Source of the DNA: Bizionia saleffrena | GTDB lineage: Bacteria > Bacteroidota > Bacteroidia > Flavobacteriales > Flavobacteriaceae | Direction of reading: 5' to 3' | Assembly (NCBI RefSeq): GCF_008086175.1 | Contig: NZ_VSKM01000006.1 | Coordinates: 1-64,000 of the forward strand | Length of the DNA: 64,000 bases | In this document: positions 46,422 to 64,000 of the stretch, piece after piece | Numbering within the stretch: the first letter of the stretch is position 1 | Layout: each line of letters starts with the position of its first letter | The notes under the pieces: generated by a model | Seen by the model: the letters and a program-made list of their open reading frames with translations, nothing else | Databases searched by the model: none | What the model was told of the DNA's origin: nothing | Translations under genes and position numbers: made by a program

Positions 46422-47066
46422 TCAATTAGCGTTCCATTCGCTCGGATTGGAATTCCAATCGGACAAAGTTGTTAATTCTGCTTGTTTTATGTAATTAGCC
46501 TCAACAGCTTCTTGCAATAGGCTGTCGTAATTACTTAGCGTATGTAAGGTGATATTGGCGTCTTCGAAATTTTTTGTAGCCACTTCAAAGCCATAAGAAA
46601 AAATAGCAACCATTCCTTTAACATTAACATTGGCTTCCCTTAAAGCCTTAACGGCATTTAAGCTACTGTTTCCTGTGCTAATTAAATCTTCGATAACGAC
46701 AACGTTTTGTCCGCTCTCAATAAAGCCTTCAATTTGGTTTTGGCGACCGTGCTTTTTAGCTTCAGGGCGTACATAAACAAATGGTACACCTAGATATTCG
46801 GCAACTAGTACGCCTATGGCAATAGCGCCTGTAGCAACACCGGCGATAACGTCTGGCTTACCGTATTCTTGCTCAATAAACTTGGCCATTTCTTCACGAA
46901 TATAATTTCTTATTAACGGAAAAGAAAGTACCACTCTATTGTCGCAATAAATTGGAGATTTCCAACCCGATGCCCAAGTAAATGGGGCGTTTGGTTGTAA
47001 TTTAATGGCATTAACTTGTAGTAATACCTTAGCGGTTTGTCTGGCAGTATATTTGTCGATAATCAT
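46422..47066 (-). CDS. pyrE: Orotate phosphoribosyltransferase
   Basis: The 214-residue enzyme makes OMP from orotate and PRPP in pyrimidine synthesis. The PRPP loop is VVVIEDLISTGNSSLNAV. Other blocks are WASGWKSPIYCDNR and VAGVATGAIAIGVLVAEYLGVPF. The start at 47066 (MIIDKYTAR) is chosen because a promoter element ends at 47072, and the other in-frame ATG at 47072 overlaps it. The transcript is therefore expected to be leaderless or nearly so. Confidence 0.94.
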   Translation of the reverse strand: MIIDKYTARQTAKVLLQVNAIKLQPNAPFTWASGWKSPIYCDNRVVLSFPLIRNYIREEMAKFIEQEYGKPDVIAGVATGAIAIGVLVAEYLGVPFVYVRPEAKKHGRQNQIEGFIESGQNVVVIEDLISTGNSSLNAVKALREANVNVKGMVAIFSYGFEVATKNFEDANITLHTLSNYDSLLQEAVEANYIKQAELTTLSDWNSNPSEWNAN

Positions 47067-47071
47067 AAGCA

Positions 47072-47079
47072 CAAAAGTA
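47072..47079 (-). promoter_or_regulatory. -7 element for pyrE
   Basis: TACTTTTG on the minus strand matches TAnnTTTG and ends 5 bases before the pyrE ATG. Confidence 0.6.
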
Positions 47080-47195
47080 GGAATAATTTAATTTACTAGT
47101 TATATGTTCGATAAAAAAAAATATTTTTAATAATCTGTTCAGTTCTTTAAAAAATGATATTTTTACAAGCAGTAAATAAACACTTATACCTATAT

Positions 47196-47777
47196 ATGTA
47201 TCGCATTTTTGTTAATGACAAACCTATTTTTTTAAATACAATAGTAGAAAAAGAAACCGACTTTAAAAATTTTCTTTTAAAGGATGCTAATATGGAGACT
47301 GTAGTGCAGACTTTATCTAAGAAAAAAATGAGTTCTGTACGCTTAATACACCATAATGAAGAAACACTGCTTAAAAAGTTTTTAAAGAAATTACCAAATG
47401 TTATTGCTGGCGGTGGAAAAGTACACAATGAGAATGGCGACATTTTATTTATTTATAGAAATGATAAATGGGATTTGCCAAAAGGAAAAGCCGAAAAAAA
47501 GGAAACCATTGAAGAAACGGCTTTGCGAGAAGTTGAAGAAGAGACCGGTGTTTCTGGACTTGAAATTATAAAACCATTAGACATTACCTATCATATTTTT
47601 AAGCGTAACGGTAAACTTAAAATAAAAATCACCCATTGGTTCGAAATGAAAACGAAGTATTCTGGTGAATTATTACCGCAAGAAAATGAAGGGATTACTA
47701 AAGTAGAATGGTTAAATAACGAAAACTCTCAAAAAGCCTTAGAAAACTCTTACGCTAACATTAAATTGTTGTTTTAA
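47196..47777 (+). CDS. NUDIX hydrolase
   Basis: The 193-residue protein has the complete NUDIX box (GKAEKKETIEETALREVEEE followed by TG) that binds Mg2+ and hydrolyses nucleoside-diphosphate derivatives. The N-terminal 75 residues (YRIFVNDKPIFLNT region) form an extra domain seen in flavobacterial relatives. WDLPKGK precedes the box. The start at 47196 is preferred over an ATG at 47154. It is divergent from pyrE; the substrate is unknown. Confidence 0.9.
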   Translation: MYRIFVNDKPIFLNTIVEKETDFKNFLLKDANMETVVQTLSKKKMSSVRLIHHNEETLLKKFLKKLPNVIAGGGKVHNENGDILFIYRNDKWDLPKGKAEKKETIEETALREVEEETGVSGLEIIKPLDITYHIFKRNGKLKIKITHWFEMKTKYSGELLPQENEGITKVEWLNNENSQKALENSYANIKLLF

Positions 47778-48523: not shown

Positions 48524-50269
48524 TTATTCTGTAATACGATAGATAGGGTAGTGTAAGTGCGCTTTTTCGTAATTCACACTGCGTTTATGTAACCAATCAA
48601 GTTGTGAGTACCAGTTTTCTCTAAACGCTTTGTTCTCTGTTTTACGTTTTTCAAATGCTGTTTTTAATTCTGGATTAGTCTCTAAAAGCGCTAAAGCTTT
48701 ATCTTCCCAAACATAAGGCGAAAAACCTTCTTTTTGTTGTAGAATAGTATCGAAGAAATTCCAATTAAAAAAGGAATCGATTGCTGAAGGTTCTAATGTT
48801 TCCAATACATAACGAAGGCCGTCTTGGTTTGTGTTAACCAAAATATCGCCAGCACGGAAAGCTATTTCTAAAGTATCGGTAACCACAGTTGTGTCATAAT
48901 GCGAATAATGGCCTTCGTACGGCTGTCTTCTAGTTTTGAAATCTTCAATTTTATAACGCTCCACTTCAATAATGGAATCTTTAGCTAAAGGTTCTGTTTT
49001 AATGTTATTGAGCTGTAATAATGACAACACGTTATGCCAACCTTGCGGAATGACATAATACTCGGGTATTGTTACTTTTTGTGTGGCTTTAAAATAATTA
49101 TTGTAAATAATGGCTTTGGTAAATGGTTTGTCGCGGTCGTATTTTAAACGTTTTAGATTGGTAACTTCGCTTGTTATTATTTCTCCTTCGTAGCCTTTAA
49201 AATTTAATACAGAATGTTTAGTGGTATCCACCACCCAATTAAACTTATAGGTTGTATCGCGCTTAAATTGCTTTATGTTGTTATTGCGGACCTCTTTAAT
49301 TAAAGCATAATCGGTTTCTGTAATACCGATGAGTGTTTTCATTAGCTCATAAGTACCTTTCACACGCTGTTTGTAAGGTTTTAGCATATGGGTTTCTACC
49401 ATTATTCCTAACGTATTAAACAAAGTGGTATATCCAGTAGAATATCTAGGCGCATCCAAGAATTGAGAAAAGCCGTTGTCTGGAACAGTATTAAAAACAT
49501 TAACGTATGGTGTAATATCCCAATTCTTATTAGCAAGATTTAGCTCTAAATCGGGCATCATTTTCTCGTGAAGATACGCCCCCAATTCCCCGCCTAATTT
49601 ATTGTGCTGCGTAAATAAATGGGTAAGCGTGTATTGGTAGTCTGCGCCATTGCTGACGTGGTTGTCTACAAAAATATCTGGTTGTACTTTATGAAACAAT
49701 GCGGCAAAGGCTCTAGCATTTTTAGTATCGCTTTTTATAAAATCGCGATTTAAATCGTAGTTACGAGCGTTTCCGCGAAACCCGTATTCTTTTGGACCGT
49801 TTTGGTTGGTTCTCGTCGCCGTGTTTCGGTTTAAGCTTCCCCCCACATTATAAATGGGTATGGTTACCAAAACGGTGTTTTTTAAAGTCTCTAATTTGCC
49901 TTGTGCCAAATCGCGAAACAGTAACATCGTAGCATCGATTCCATCGCTTTCTCCCGGATGAATGCCGTTATTAATAAGGACAATAGCTTTGTGTTTTGCT
50001 AATTGTTCAAAATTAAATTCCGCATCAGGATTGTACGTAATAAAGTGAAGTGGTTTACCGGCGTCTGTGTTGCCAATAGAGTCCATTGCAATACTCGGGT
50101 AAGTGGCTGCTAAATTACTGTAAAACTTAATTACGTCGTAATAGGTTCCTGTTTCGGTGCCGTTAGATACTTCGAAATGGGTGGACACATTTAAAGGCTG
50201 TAATATTTTTTCTTCGGAAGAATGACAAGCACAAAGTACGCTTAGTAAACAGTAAATAATAAACTTCAT
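48524..50269 (-). CDS. M14 family zinc carboxypeptidase, lipoprotein
   Basis: The 581-residue lipoprotein has signal LCAC with lipidated Cys15. The M14 catalytic domain has His104 and Glu107 in NNGIHPGESDG (Zn ligands), the Arg-containing RNARNYDLNRDFIK, and the third Zn ligand in IFVDNHVSNGADY. A C-terminal region of about 250 residues shows no recognised domain. The enzyme is exported and probably trims peptides at the surface or in the periplasm. It stands alone on the minus strand. Confidence 0.88.
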   Translation of the reverse strand: MKFIIYCLLSVLCACHSSEEKILQPLNVSTHFEVSNGTETGTYYDVIKFYSNLAATYPSIAMDSIGNTDAGKPLHFITYNPDAEFNFEQLAKHKAIVLINNGIHPGESDGIDATMLLFRDLAQGKLETLKNTVLVTIPIYNVGGSLNRNTATRTNQNGPKEYGFRGNARNYDLNRDFIKSDTKNARAFAALFHKVQPDIFVDNHVSNGADYQYTLTHLFTQHNKLGGELGAYLHEKMMPDLELNLANKNWDITPYVNVFNTVPDNGFSQFLDAPRYSTGYTTLFNTLGIMVETHMLKPYKQRVKGTYELMKTLIGITETDYALIKEVRNNNIKQFKRDTTYKFNWVVDTTKHSVLNFKGYEGEIITSEVTNLKRLKYDRDKPFTKAIIYNNYFKATQKVTIPEYYVIPQGWHNVLSLLQLNNIKTEPLAKDSIIEVERYKIEDFKTRRQPYEGHYSHYDTTVVTDTLEIAFRAGDILVNTNQDGLRYVLETLEPSAIDSFFNWNFFDTILQQKEGFSPYVWEDKALALLETNPELKTAFEKRKTENKAFRENWYSQLDWLHKRSVNYEKAHLHYPIYRITE

Positions 50270-50467: not shown

Positions 50468-52129
50468 ATGACAGATTTTATAAGAAAAATAGTGCCCAAT
50501 GCAAAAGACGATGTGCTTGCAGGTATTACTGTATCGCTAGCGATGATTCCTGAGGTTGTTGCCTTTGCATTCGTTGCGCAAATAGATCCGCTAGTCGCAC
50601 TTTCTGGGGCTTTTATTGTAGGGTTAATTTCTGCTATTTTTGGTGGTAGACCTGGTTTAATTTCGGGTGCTGCTGGTGCTGTAGCCGTTATTTTTGTAAC
50701 AATGATTTCTGAAGGACATACGCGAGGGATGTTGTTTGATCAACCTGTGGAAAATATGGGCTTTTTCTACCTATTCGCCTGTGTGATTTTAATGGGTATT
50801 ATCCAAATTTTTGCAGGTGTTTTTAAATTAGGACGTTTTGTACGTTTAATTCCGCACTCGGTAATGATGGGGTTTGTAAACGGTTTGGCTATCGTTATTT
50901 TTTGGGCTCAGGTAAAAATGTTTTCCCATAAATCGTTGGAAGTCTCTAGCGATGGTGTAAAAAATTATATTACTACGTTTATGACGGGTACCGAATTATA
51001 CATTATGATTGGGCTAGTCGCTTTAACCATGGCTATAATTTGGTTATTACCAAAATTAACAACCAAGATACCAGCGTCTTTAACGGCGATTTTAGTAACG
51101 ACGCTGTTAGTTGTTTTTTCTGGACTTGATGTTACTACTGTAGGTTCTTATATTATAGAAGGTGGTGGTACGGGATTAAAAGGAGAGTTTCCAACCCCTA
51201 ATTTAGAGCTTTGGGAAAACTTACCAATTAATCTTGATACCTTATCTTTTATTTTGCCGTATGCGTTTTTAGCAGCGTCGGTGGGATTAATTGAGTCGTT
51301 AATGACAATGAACTTAGTCGATGAACTAACAGAAACACGAGGAAACGGAAATCGCGAATGTATTGCTCAAGGAGCAGGAAATATGGTAAGCGGATTGTTT
51401 GGAGGTACTGGTGGTTGCGGTATGATTGGGCAAACGGTAATTAATATTAATGCTGGTGGTCGTGGTCGCCTATCGGGGATTATGATGGCGGTGACTTTAT
51501 TAACGTTTATTTTATTTACCGATAAATTCATTGAACAAGTACCAATTGCTGCTTTAATAGGTGTAATGTTTATGATGGTTATAGAAACGTTTGCGTGGTC
51601 AAGTTTTAGAATCTTAAAGAAAATACCAAGATCGGATGCTTTTGTACTGATTACGGTATCGGTAGTAACCGTTATTTTTGATTTAGCCATTGCGGTATTT
51701 GTTGGTGTTATTATTTCGGCATTAGCCTTTGCTTGGGAAAACGCCAAGAAAATTAGAGCTAGAAGACGCGTAAAAACCGATGGTACGAAAGTGTACGAAA
51801 TTTGGGGACCATTATTTTTTGGAAGTATCCAGGCGTTTAATGATAAATTTGATGTTAAAAACGATCCAGATCACGTAGAAATAGATTTTATTGAAAGTAG
51901 AATAAGCGACCACTCGGCGCTAGAAGCTATTTTTATTTTGGTTGAAAAATATGAAGCTGCTGGAAAAACGATTAGGCTTAAGCATTTAAGTGAAGATTGT
52001 AAAGTGCTAATGTATAAGGCGAGTCCGAAATTTAAAGATGTAATCATCGTAGATGTCGAAGACCCGCGGTACCATTTGGCAGCAAACCCAGAGGAGTTTC
52101 CAAAACCGCTCTCGGAGTATAAATTCTAA
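50468..52129 (+). CDS. SulP family anion transporter with STAS domain
   Basis: The 553-residue transporter has about 12-14 TM helices (about 10-420) and a cytosolic STAS domain (about 430-545; VYEIWGPLFFGSIQAFNDKF, HSALEAIFILVEKYEAAGKTIRLKHLS). Family blocks include PEVVAFAFVAQIDPLVALSGAF and the GGTGGCGMIGQTVININAG region. SulP proteins move sulfate, bicarbonate or dicarboxylates; the substrate is not decidable here. Bicarbonate is common in marine bacteria. It is monocistronic and ends before two hairpins. Confidence 0.92.
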   Translation: MTDFIRKIVPNAKDDVLAGITVSLAMIPEVVAFAFVAQIDPLVALSGAFIVGLISAIFGGRPGLISGAAGAVAVIFVTMISEGHTRGMLFDQPVENMGFFYLFACVILMGIIQIFAGVFKLGRFVRLIPHSVMMGFVNGLAIVIFWAQVKMFSHKSLEVSSDGVKNYITTFMTGTELYIMIGLVALTMAIIWLLPKLTTKIPASLTAILVTTLLVVFSGLDVTTVGSYIIEGGGTGLKGEFPTPNLELWENLPINLDTLSFILPYAFLAASVGLIESLMTMNLVDELTETRGNGNRECIAQGAGNMVSGLFGGTGGCGMIGQTVININAGGRGRLSGIMMAVTLLTFILFTDKFIEQVPIAALIGVMFMMVIETFAWSSFRILKKIPRSDAFVLITVSVVTVIFDLAIAVFVGVIISALAFAWENAKKIRARRRVKTDGTKVYEIWGPLFFGSIQAFNDKFDVKNDPDHVEIDFIESRISDHSALEAIFILVEKYEAAGKTIRLKHLSEDCKVLMYKASPKFKDVIIVDVEDPRYHLAANPEEFPKPLSEYKF

Positions 52130-62420: not shown

Positions 62421-62663
62421 ATGGAACCACAACCTAACAATCCTTTACACGGTATTACTTTAGAAAAAATAATCACCGATTTACAAACGCATTACGGGTG
62501 GGAATATTTAGGACTTACCATAAAAATTCGCTGTTTTAATGAAAATCCAACAGTAAAATCGAGCTTAAAATTTTTACGTCGCACACCGTGGGCACGAACT
62601 AAAGTCGAAAATTTATATTTAAAAATGATTAAAAGTCAAGCGTATAAAAAGAGTCTTAATTAA
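62421..62663 (+). CDS. VF530 family DNA-binding protein (DUF2132)
   Basis: The 80-residue protein has the VF530 pattern [60 protein letters not shown], a small helical fold that binds double-stranded DNA in the characterised structure. It follows the DUF6500 gene by 3 bases and ends overlapping by 4 bases the convergent amidohydrolase-like gene. Confidence 0.88.
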
Positions 62664-63343
62664 TTTAAGGCTTTTTTTATGGCGTGAAATAAGATGCTTT
62701 TTAATGTTGAATGCATTATATTTTGCCTTGAAAACTTCTGATTAATCTCTAATTCAATACCTAGATAATTAAGTGCGAATTGTTGTCTTAGGTACGTTGT
62801 AAAACCATCGGCTTTGCCCAAATAGGGATAGTTATATCGCACGTTTAAGTTGCTATCTTCAGTCTTTAAATGGTCTTTTAATAGTGAGGCCCATCGTTTT
62901 TCTCCTTGCCTTGAAGAATCGTAAAGAATTCCAATATCGCACGAACGTTCTATAATGTTAAAAACGGGAGTAAATGAATGAATGGATAAATGCAACACGG
63001 TTTCATTACTGCCAATTAAATTTCTTATTTCTGTTTCTACCGCATTGCGATACGGGAAATAATAATCCTTTATAATACCCTCTTTTTCGGTGTTGGCTAA
63101 CCCTTTCGTAAACTCAGAAAAGAGATGTTTATGGTGCAACGAGCGATTCAATTCAATTAACAATCTACTTGTAGCACTATAATTAGAATATACTGCTAGC
63201 GTTTTTAACGCATTAAAAACATCTAAAGCACCGAAGTCGAAACCACGATGCGATTGTAATATTTCAAGACTATTTTTAAAATATTCTGTGTACTCACTCG
63301 GGATAGTCTTGCCTCCATGTTCGCAGGTTACAATCAGTTTCAT
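62660..63343 (-). CDS. N-formylglutamate amidohydrolase family protein
   Basis: The 227-residue zinc hydrolase has N-terminal [17 protein letters not shown] (Zn ligands Glu and His), then [25 protein letters not shown] and [13 protein letters not shown] (His ligands). The family includes HutG-type enzymes of histidine breakdown, but no hut genes are here. The start at 63343 overlaps the stop of the GCS2 gene (ATGA), so the two are coupled, which points to a role in release or editing of a gamma-glutamyl or related peptide. That role is inference. Confidence 0.85.
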
Positions 63344-64000
63344 ACTGAGAATACGGTATTTGTTTGTAAGCAATCGGCAAGTTTAGAATACACTTTTTTA
63401 ATGTGAGCTTCAGAGAAATCACTGTCGACTGCCTTTAAAATTCTAGTCGCCAAAGTGCCGTCATTTAAAATCGTTTCAATCGCGTGATAATGTGACGCGT
63501 GAATAGTTGGTTTTGCTAATTTATATAAGTGTTTCCAAATAGCATTCACTGTTGCGTTTTCTTCTAGATGGAACAATTGTAAATAGTTTGTATTTGTTAC
63601 TTCGTAGTTTTCACCTTCTTTAATTATAGGGTTAAAAACAGCAAATAACGCTTCTTTTGTCCATCCTTTTTGGTCGCTCAAAGAGGCTAAGTGTTTATTA
63701 ACTAATAATTTTAATGTTTCAATAATTAACACGCAAATGGCAATATCTGCTTGCGGACATTCTTGAATATCTACCAATCTAATTTCTATGGCATTCCTAT
63801 CAAAACGGGCGATTGCTCCTCGTGAATTTAAAAAATGATGATCTAAAATACCGTTAGTATCTTTCGGTGCGATGGCTTTTTTAATCGGTTCGAAAATGGT
63901 AGAATAATAATCGATTTTTGTAAACACACGTTCCGGAATTACCAAGCCTGTCATTTCTGGAATTTCTTTCTGATTCGTTTTATAGTATTCTAATCGCGTG
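63340..64000 (-). CDS. GCS2 family carboxylate-amine ligase, 5' end beyond the window
   Basis: The minus-strand frame stays open to the window edge. The visible 219 residues include GAIARFDRNAIEIRLVDIQE, AICVLIIETLKLL and YEVTNTNYLQLFHLEE, as in the C-terminal half of the glutamate-cysteine ligase GCS2 family, which joins an amino acid to glutamate (or an amine to a carboxylate) with ATP. The Arg-rich RFDRNAIEIR belongs to the active-site region of the fold. The stop codon overlaps the amidohydrolase start. The substrate is unknown. Confidence 0.8.
   Translation of the reverse strand, partial: TRLEYYKTNQKEIPEMTGLVIPERVFTKIDYYSTIFEPIKKAIAPKDTNGILDHHFLNSRGAIARFDRNAIEIRLVDIQECPQADIAICVLIIETLKLLVNKHLASLSDQKGWTKEALFAVFNPIIKEGENYEVTNTNYLQLFHLEENATVNAIWKHLYKLAKPTIHASHYHAIETILNDGTLATRILKAVDSDFSEAHIKKVYSKLADCLQTNTVFSV

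Follow-up and report, generated by a model that had tools for sequence, protein, structure and literature searches.

The right edge of this window raises the question of which pathway brings together a gene for an amide-forming ligase and a gene for an amide-cleaving hydrolase. The window is the 64,000-base stretch that we analyzed, positions 1-64000 of a 217,080-base contig in a genome of 3.28 Mb. An FGase-family (PF05013) amidohydrolase is encoded on the minus strand at 62660-63343 and has 227 aa when counted from the coupled ATG; the ORF listing also offers a longer TTG start at 63373. The gene before it (63340-64566, minus strand) codes for a 408-aa GCS2-type carboxylate-amine ligase (PF04107), and its 3' part up to 64000 lies inside the window. 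The FGase protein scored 73.7 bits against PF05013 (cut-off 28.9) and the GCS2 protein 86.6 bits against PF04107 (cut-off 21), and these are the only matches to either family in the genome (E≤0.001). The stop codon of GCS2, TGA (63342-63340), overlaps the FGase start codon as ATGA (63340-63343, minus strand), an overlap reported in the initial annotation and confirmed here in the sequence. This arrangement suggests that the two genes are likely translationally coupled. The 3' end of the FGase gene overlaps a convergent VF530 gene (PF09905) by four bases as well (62660-62663).

We extended the sequence to the right along the contig. The initial annotation had guessed that a RimK-type ATP-grasp gene might lie upstream, and such a gene is present at contig positions 64566-66014 on the minus strand. 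Its 482-aa product matches both the RLAN domain (PF14401, 168.3 bits, cut-off 25) and the RimK-type ATP-grasp domain (PF08443, 36.5 bits, cut-off 21) in Pfam. The end of this RLAN-RimK gene overlaps the start of GCS2 by one base (TAATG). Because RLAN-RimK lies directly upstream with this overlap, we conclude that the three genes form an operon in which RLAN-RimK is first and FGase third. The opposing amide chemistry noticed earlier therefore holds for an operon with two ligases and one hydrolase. Further upstream are a SpoU-methylase-family gene (189 bases away) and a gene for an NAD-binding protein, followed by what we take, from sequence, to be an NhaA-like antiporter gene and the trp operon. 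With these genes upstream, neither glutathione nor hut genes adjoin the operon, in agreement with the initial annotation. We did not find the Bacteroidetes-type -7 motif TAnnTTTG in the 246 bases upstream of RimK.

Linkage of the three genes was examined by scanning contigs of relatives. Of the 29 loci obtained, most bear the title of a genus that we place in the Flavobacteriaceae, and one is titled only Bacteroidia. GCS2 lies directly after RimK in all 29 loci (its frame is split in L061), and FGase follows in 28; the exception, L056, stops at a contig edge. The GCS2/FGase overlap is exactly four bases in 24 of the 28 measurable loci and ranges from a 1-base overlap to a 22-base gap in the other four. 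The flanking genes vary among the 29 loci, and only L033 and L034, both titled Bizionia, share the window's SpoU and DEAD-helicase flanks.

We surveyed the phylum more widely in one draw of 296 Bacteroidota genomes, using profiles for PF14401, PF04107, PF05013 and a C39-like family described below. RLAN was found in 35 genomes. It belongs to a stand-alone RLAN-RimK in 24 of them (ORFs of 481-563 aa) and to a long ORF in 10 (649-730 aa); one genome with a split gene (G155) was counted among the 35 but in neither class. By coordinates, GCS2 is adjacent to the stand-alone RLAN-RimK in all 24 genomes, so that the stand-alone enzyme is always coupled to a ligase of an unrelated fold (24/24 genomes and 29/29 scanned loci). 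The module spans eight Bacteroidota families in the draw; within the window's family, just 19 of 149 genomes carry RLAN. The four-base overlap kept in most loci and the constant placement of GCS2 beside RLAN-RimK indicate that the pairing is more than chance, in line with the initial expectation of a conserved linkage. RimK and GCS2 also gave high mirror-tree correlations (r = 0.97 over 42 loci and 0.74 over 13 diverse loci, with L061 and L069 dropped beforehand), but these largely reflect shared phylogeny and carry no evidential weight.

The operon-type GCS2 proteins form a low-scoring group within PF04107, at 60.0-104.4 bits versus 187-242 bits for most of the other full-length matches listed. 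Intermediate scores among the matches listed were 115-125 bits (G076 and G194) and 104.8 bits (G128). Many Bacteroidota genomes also contain ORFs of about 490-740 aa with weak PF04107 matches of about 30-40 bits (for example G191 C1:907458 and G199 C29:293518), which may represent a further family of ligases with this superfold.

The initial annotation had treated GCS2 and FGase as the core pair, and the survey corrects this assignment. The core of the module is RimK and GCS2, which are invariant; FGase is the most dispensable member, lying within the unit in 16 of the 24 stand-alone genomes. No decayed FGase copy was detected by tblastn (E≤0.01) in 7 of the 8 loci that lack it, and the eighth, G123, was outside the search. 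A C39-like gene is adjacent in 21 of the 24 genomes, all except those of the window's own family, and none of the 24 units is without an amide hydrolase of the FGase or the C39-like type. At one locus (L069; G179 C1:2369000-2386000), the frames of both RimK and GCS2 are broken in two, although the genome has a completeness rating of 99%; this reflects either sequencing error or decay, and the region downstream of the module seems to encode a different protein.

The C39-like gene was identified by ORF clustering of 44 loci, where, in 10 loci from families other than the window's, a gene for 229-249 aa immediately precedes RimK. ORF calling had overlooked it in L069 and L071, and a profile search recovered it there. 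Three of the proteins were tested in Pfam and matched Peptidase_C39_2 (39.9-50 bits, cut-off 24). Columns C15, H172 and D190, which we take to be the catalytic triad, are invariant in all 10 aligned proteins. The C39-like profile scored above 300 bits in 21 of the 296 genomes; all 21 carry the module (Fisher p = 2.7e-29, phylogeny ignored), and in each the gene is upstream of RimK on the same strand. Another 27 genomes matched at only 19.9-32.1 bits, of which 26 lack RLAN and the remaining one is G155. There was no strong match in the 272 genomes of the draw that lack the stand-alone module. The three stand-alone carriers without a C39-like gene are exactly those of the window's family. We conclude from this distribution that the full module consists of C39-like, RimK, GCS2 and often FGase genes, and that the window's family retains RimK, GCS2 and FGase.

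RLAN-RimK also occurs in other settings. A GNAT domain precedes RLAN-RimK in the three long ORFs tested in Pfam (L062, L064 and L067). The position of the RimK profile suggests the same layout in L063, L065 and L066, and ORF length points to it in the remaining four cases. We found no GCS2 beside the long RLAN-RimK by tblastn in six fetched loci. Among the other long-ORF genomes, G089 has no PF04107 match, G239 has one on another contig, G262 has one more than 1 Mb away, and G061 has a single weak match whose position is not listed. A profile search gave no C39-like match in any of the 10 long-ORF genomes. In L068 (G155 C2:80000-97000), RLAN and ATP-grasp are on separate ORFs and a GNAT-C39 (DUF3335) gene adjoins them; judged from its ORFs, this locus is a split form of the RLAN-RimK system.

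Outside the phylum, the RimK protein of the window matched 45 records in a plasmid collection, 11 of which cover at least 80% of the query. We examined five records, from Legionella, P. aeruginosa, Azospirillum, Tistrella and Aeromonas. The gene order RimK, GCS2, FGase recurs in Legionella adelaidensis (NZ_LR134436.1), a gammaproteobacterium, with a GCS2/FGase overlap of four bases; the RimK there is annotated from base 41 of the record and, compared with the window's protein, is missing roughly 60 residues at its start. In the other four records, the flanks of RLAN-RimK (up to 6 kb) yielded neither GCS2 nor FGase. A GNAT-C39 (DUF3335) gene adjoins RLAN-RimK in Azospirillum. The P. aeruginosa plasmid (NZ_CP133752.1) carries a lone RLAN-RimK gene (L082 5899-7488); tblastn found neither GCS2 nor FGase there, and no neighboring gene is annotated as GNAT. 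GNAT is fused to RLAN-RimK in the three Pfam-tested cases and lies beside it in two. Together, the Bacteroidota and plasmid surveys indicate that RLAN-RimK recurs with GCS2 or GNAT and with FGase or C39-like enzymes, and also without them. Its occurrence where no neighboring GCS2 was found (10 of 35 genomes and the P. aeruginosa plasmid) implies that GCS2 is not needed for the basic reaction of RLAN-RimK. That ATP-grasp ligases can share operons with COOH-NH2 ligases or GNATs was known earlier (PMC4431377).

The enzymes were also characterized by structure models and conserved residues. The AlphaFold model of RLAN-RimK (pLDDT 83.2, pTM 0.70) resembles RimK, LysX and ArgX (best E 6.0e-17); the best 50 of its 1447 structural matches are all ATP-grasp ligases, so they add no information on the RLAN fold. 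The GCS2 model (pLDDT 89.9, pTM 0.92) resembles YbdK-type 1tt4 (Foldseek E 2.5e-12), plant glutamate-cysteine ligase 2gwc (4.0e-12) and 1r8g, with weaker matches to GshA enzymes, PafA and Dop. The FGase protein has one clear solved relative, Atu2144 (2odf; phmmer E 5e-13, profile E 2.8e-30). D436, E448 and N450 of RimK, presumably the metal ligands, are invariant in 20 aligned proteins. In GCS2, G12, E14, E16, E56, E63, N140, H145, N147, R249, E261 and R263 are invariant in 19 proteins, and in FGase E8, H9, H32, D36, R60, N66, R67, H118 and H122 are invariant in 16. We assume that the invariant residues of all three proteins are catalytic or metal-binding, and their conservation speaks against dead enzymes.

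Curated families did not capture these proteins. All seven NCBIfam models listed for GCS2 scored below cut-off, including the best match (62.6 bits, cut-off 371), the YbdK subfamily (53.7 bits, cut-off 176.4) and the cyanobacterial-type GshA (40.2 bits, cut-off 249). RLAN-RimK reached 24.1 bits against glutathione synthetase (PRK12458, cut-off 408) and 35.9 bits against the ribosomal S6 ligase (NF007764, cut-off 331). The 14 NCBIfam families matched by RLAN-RimK at E≤0.001 do not include TIGR03103 (NAGGN synthetase), and FGase had no NCBIfam match at that threshold. On these scores we rejected membership in glutathione biosynthesis for GCS2 and the ATP-grasp protein, as well as identity of RLAN-RimK with the S6 glutamate ligase RimK. 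We also rejected a HutG deformylase identity for FGase; it has no curated match, and the two HutH-family (PF00221) lyases of the genome are on other contigs (C9 and C61).

One of the closest described systems is a predicted one. Iyer, Abhiman, Burroughs and Aravind reportedly predicted RLAN/RimK amidoligase-peptidase operons in 2009 (Mol Biosyst), in which RLAN-RimK is linked to a second amidoligase as well as to peptidases with unrelated folds. The window's operon has the same makeup, with RLAN N-terminal to RimK, a second amidoligase and a hydrolase, but it differs in lacking a C39 gene. The GCS2 protein shares its fold and the PF04107 family with YbdK and plant glutamate-cysteine ligase, whereas its identity to them is 13-15%. 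Atu2144, the nearest solved sequence relative of FGase, is listed as hypothetical. Against PF05013, the operon type of FGase scores 58-90 bits, compared with 204-231 bits for the five best FGases in the phylum. In the open-access literature searched, none of the titles and abstract openings listed described a RimK-GCS2-FGase/C39-like set, and no experimental test of these subfamilies was found. The initial annotation had called the system not yet described. This is doubtful given the reported 2009 prediction of systems of this general kind, the existence of a Pfam RLAN domain and the statement in PMC4431377.

What might the module make? RimK-type enzymes use ATP to couple a carboxylate to the amine of an amino acid. 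In GCS2-type enzymes it is the gamma-carboxylate of glutamate that is activated, and N-acyl-glutamate is cleaved by enzymes of the FGase type. We propose that the module makes and turns over a small glutamate-containing amide, a reading for which we see an even chance. RLAN-RimK is predicted, from its fold and invariant residues, to form a peptide bond by activating a carboxylate with ATP and coupling it to an amino acid at the amino group. The acceptor would most likely be glutamate, as in the RimK and MptN relatives. The GCS2-type ligase would activate the gamma-carboxylate of glutamate and join a second amine. The simplest route would build a compound around one glutamate, which RimK attaches, GCS2 extends and FGase cuts. 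By hydrolyzing the N-acyl-glutamate bond, FGase could limit, trim or salvage the product; in other families the C39-like cysteine peptidase-type amidase would be the second, or the only, hydrolase. The module is probably cytosolic, and its substrate would be a small molecule rather than a protein. The distance of this GCS2 subfamily from characterized glutamate-cysteine ligases makes even its use of glutamate a presumption, and both the absence of FGase from 8 of 24 units and the occurrence of RLAN-RimK with no GCS2 found nearby count against the glutamate-amide model. More tentatively, and with somewhat less confidence than even, an undescribed glutamyl small molecule (or glutamylated protein) may be common to Bacteroidota and Legionella. 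Its synthesis would depend on the RLAN-RimK/GCS2 core, and the C39-like enzyme would be a dedicated processing enzyme that the window's family does without, keeping FGase alone. With two ligases and one or two hydrolases, and with its spread over eight Bacteroidota families and at least one gammaproteobacterium, the module offers a small and tractable set of genes in which to look for a new small peptide or cofactor. The proteins to mix are indicated by the strict pairing of RimK with GCS2 and by a C39-like family confined to the module in our draw, and 2odf and similar FGase relatives may gain a first context from the module.

Several other functions could account for the same genes; ranked roughly, protein tagging comes first, then a protecting-group cycle, then a compatible solute and last a new thiol. 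RimK adds residues to ribosomal protein S6, and PafA shares the GCS2 superfold. That RimK itself modifies a protein makes a protein substrate possible for RLAN-RimK; it would add glutamate or other residues, GCS2 would extend or cap the tag, and the hydrolases would remove or trim it. The folds closest to the RimK protein include RimK-RpsF (5zk6) and ArgX-LysW (3vpb), the GCS2 model weakly matches PafA and Dop, and the GNAT of the fused variant is most similar to RimI, presumably a ribosomal-protein acetylase, although below cut-off in both fusions tested (NCBIfam). We consider protein tagging unlikely, given that RLAN-RimK scores far under the S6-ligase cut-off, that the PafA and Dop matches are much weaker than those to YbdK, and that the 18 largest clusters listed (ORFs of at least 90 aa) include no recurrent small acceptor-like gene. 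The clusters also bear on a transient gamma-glutamyl protecting group, as used in the butirosin and gamma-glutamylated-amine pathways, in which GCS2 would block an amine, RLAN-RimK would ligate the blocked compound and FGase or the C39-like enzyme would unblock it. Apart from the synteny of one group, no further biosynthetic or catabolic gene recurs among the 18 clusters listed, and the relatives of FGase are named for removing acyl groups from glutamate, not glutamate from an amine. Such a cycle would fit the translational coupling of ligase and hydrolase, the presence of at least one hydrolase in every unit and the occurrence in other genomes of GNAT, also an N-blocking enzyme, fused to or beside RLAN-RimK; on balance it seems quite unlikely to us.

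A dipeptide-type compatible solute is suggested by the operon for N-acetylglutaminylglutamine amide (NAGGN; P. aeruginosa PA3459-PA3461). As described in PMC8070244, one enzyme there carries out both N-acetylation and peptide-bond formation, with an amidotransferase and a glutamyl aminopeptidase beside it. The window's operon shares this logic of N-capping, amide ligation and a peptidase; the NAGGN operon has an asparagine-synthase-like amidotransferase and a GNAT enzyme instead of GCS2. The GNAT-C39 genes beside RLAN-RimK weakly match TIGR03103, at 36-38 bits against a cut-off of 569. TIGR03103 is not listed for the RLAN-RimK protein of the window, however, and is absent among the best 25 of 34 families for one GNAT-RLAN fusion and among the 18 for another. 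Most genera named for the 29 scanned loci are marine, but a solute function fits poorly with the scarcity of RLAN within the window's family, and we regard it as improbable. A glutathione-like thiol is a very remote prospect. GCS2 would make gamma-glutamylcysteine and the ATP-grasp protein would add a third residue, with the same two-step logic and the same superfolds as GshA and GshB. Both proteins fall far below the GshA and glutathione synthetase cut-offs, however, and the hydrolases have no place in glutathione synthesis. The genome also encodes BshC, so the thiol of this organism is probably bacillithiol.

A small glutamate-containing amide remains our preferred product. We also asked which neighboring genes belong to the module. 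Of the 29 scanned loci, 16 have an M14-like gene upstream of the trio, as does L078; in 8 it is the immediate neighbor. We rejected it as a module member: within the window's family, 98 of 149 genomes have a profile match (E≤0.001, some weak or partial), against 19 of 149 for RLAN, which makes it a syntenic neighbor and not a specific partner. The M14 label is our assignment from the motif pattern HPGE, NRDF and DNH. The protein had no significant match in Pfam, NCBIfam or the PDB, and PF00246 missed it in its own genome even at E≤10; the 581-aa protein possibly represents an undescribed carboxypeptidase-like family.

The M14-like gene also bears on the local history of the operon. In eight relatives' loci the trio is right behind the M14-like gene; SulP precedes it in six of these loci, and NUDIX and pyrE follow in seven (L035 is cut off too soon to judge the latter). 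In the window, the pyrE-like (46422-47072), NUDIX-like (47154-47777), M14-like (48524-50269, minus strand) and SulP-like (50468-52129) genes are still together, and the trio is about 12 kb away; homology of the M14-like gene was tested, and the other three names are from sequence. Other Bizionia-titled loci (L044, L057 and L060) retain the M14-like gene upstream. The likeliest explanation is a joint relocation of the RimK-GCS2-FGase genes in the lineage to which the window, L033 and L034 belong, a direction that we infer. The further recurrent neighbors among the 18 largest clusters listed (SulP, M14-like, NUDIX, pyrE, FtsH and others) reflect the synteny of one group. A GNAT-carbon-nitrogen hydrolase fusion of 507 aa is encoded on the window's contig at 70196-71719 (L002 10196-11719, minus strand). 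In six loci (L038, L040, L042, L053, L058 and L060) a homologue of it is the gene immediately preceding RimK; as this was seen in one group of relatives only, we do not count it as a module member.
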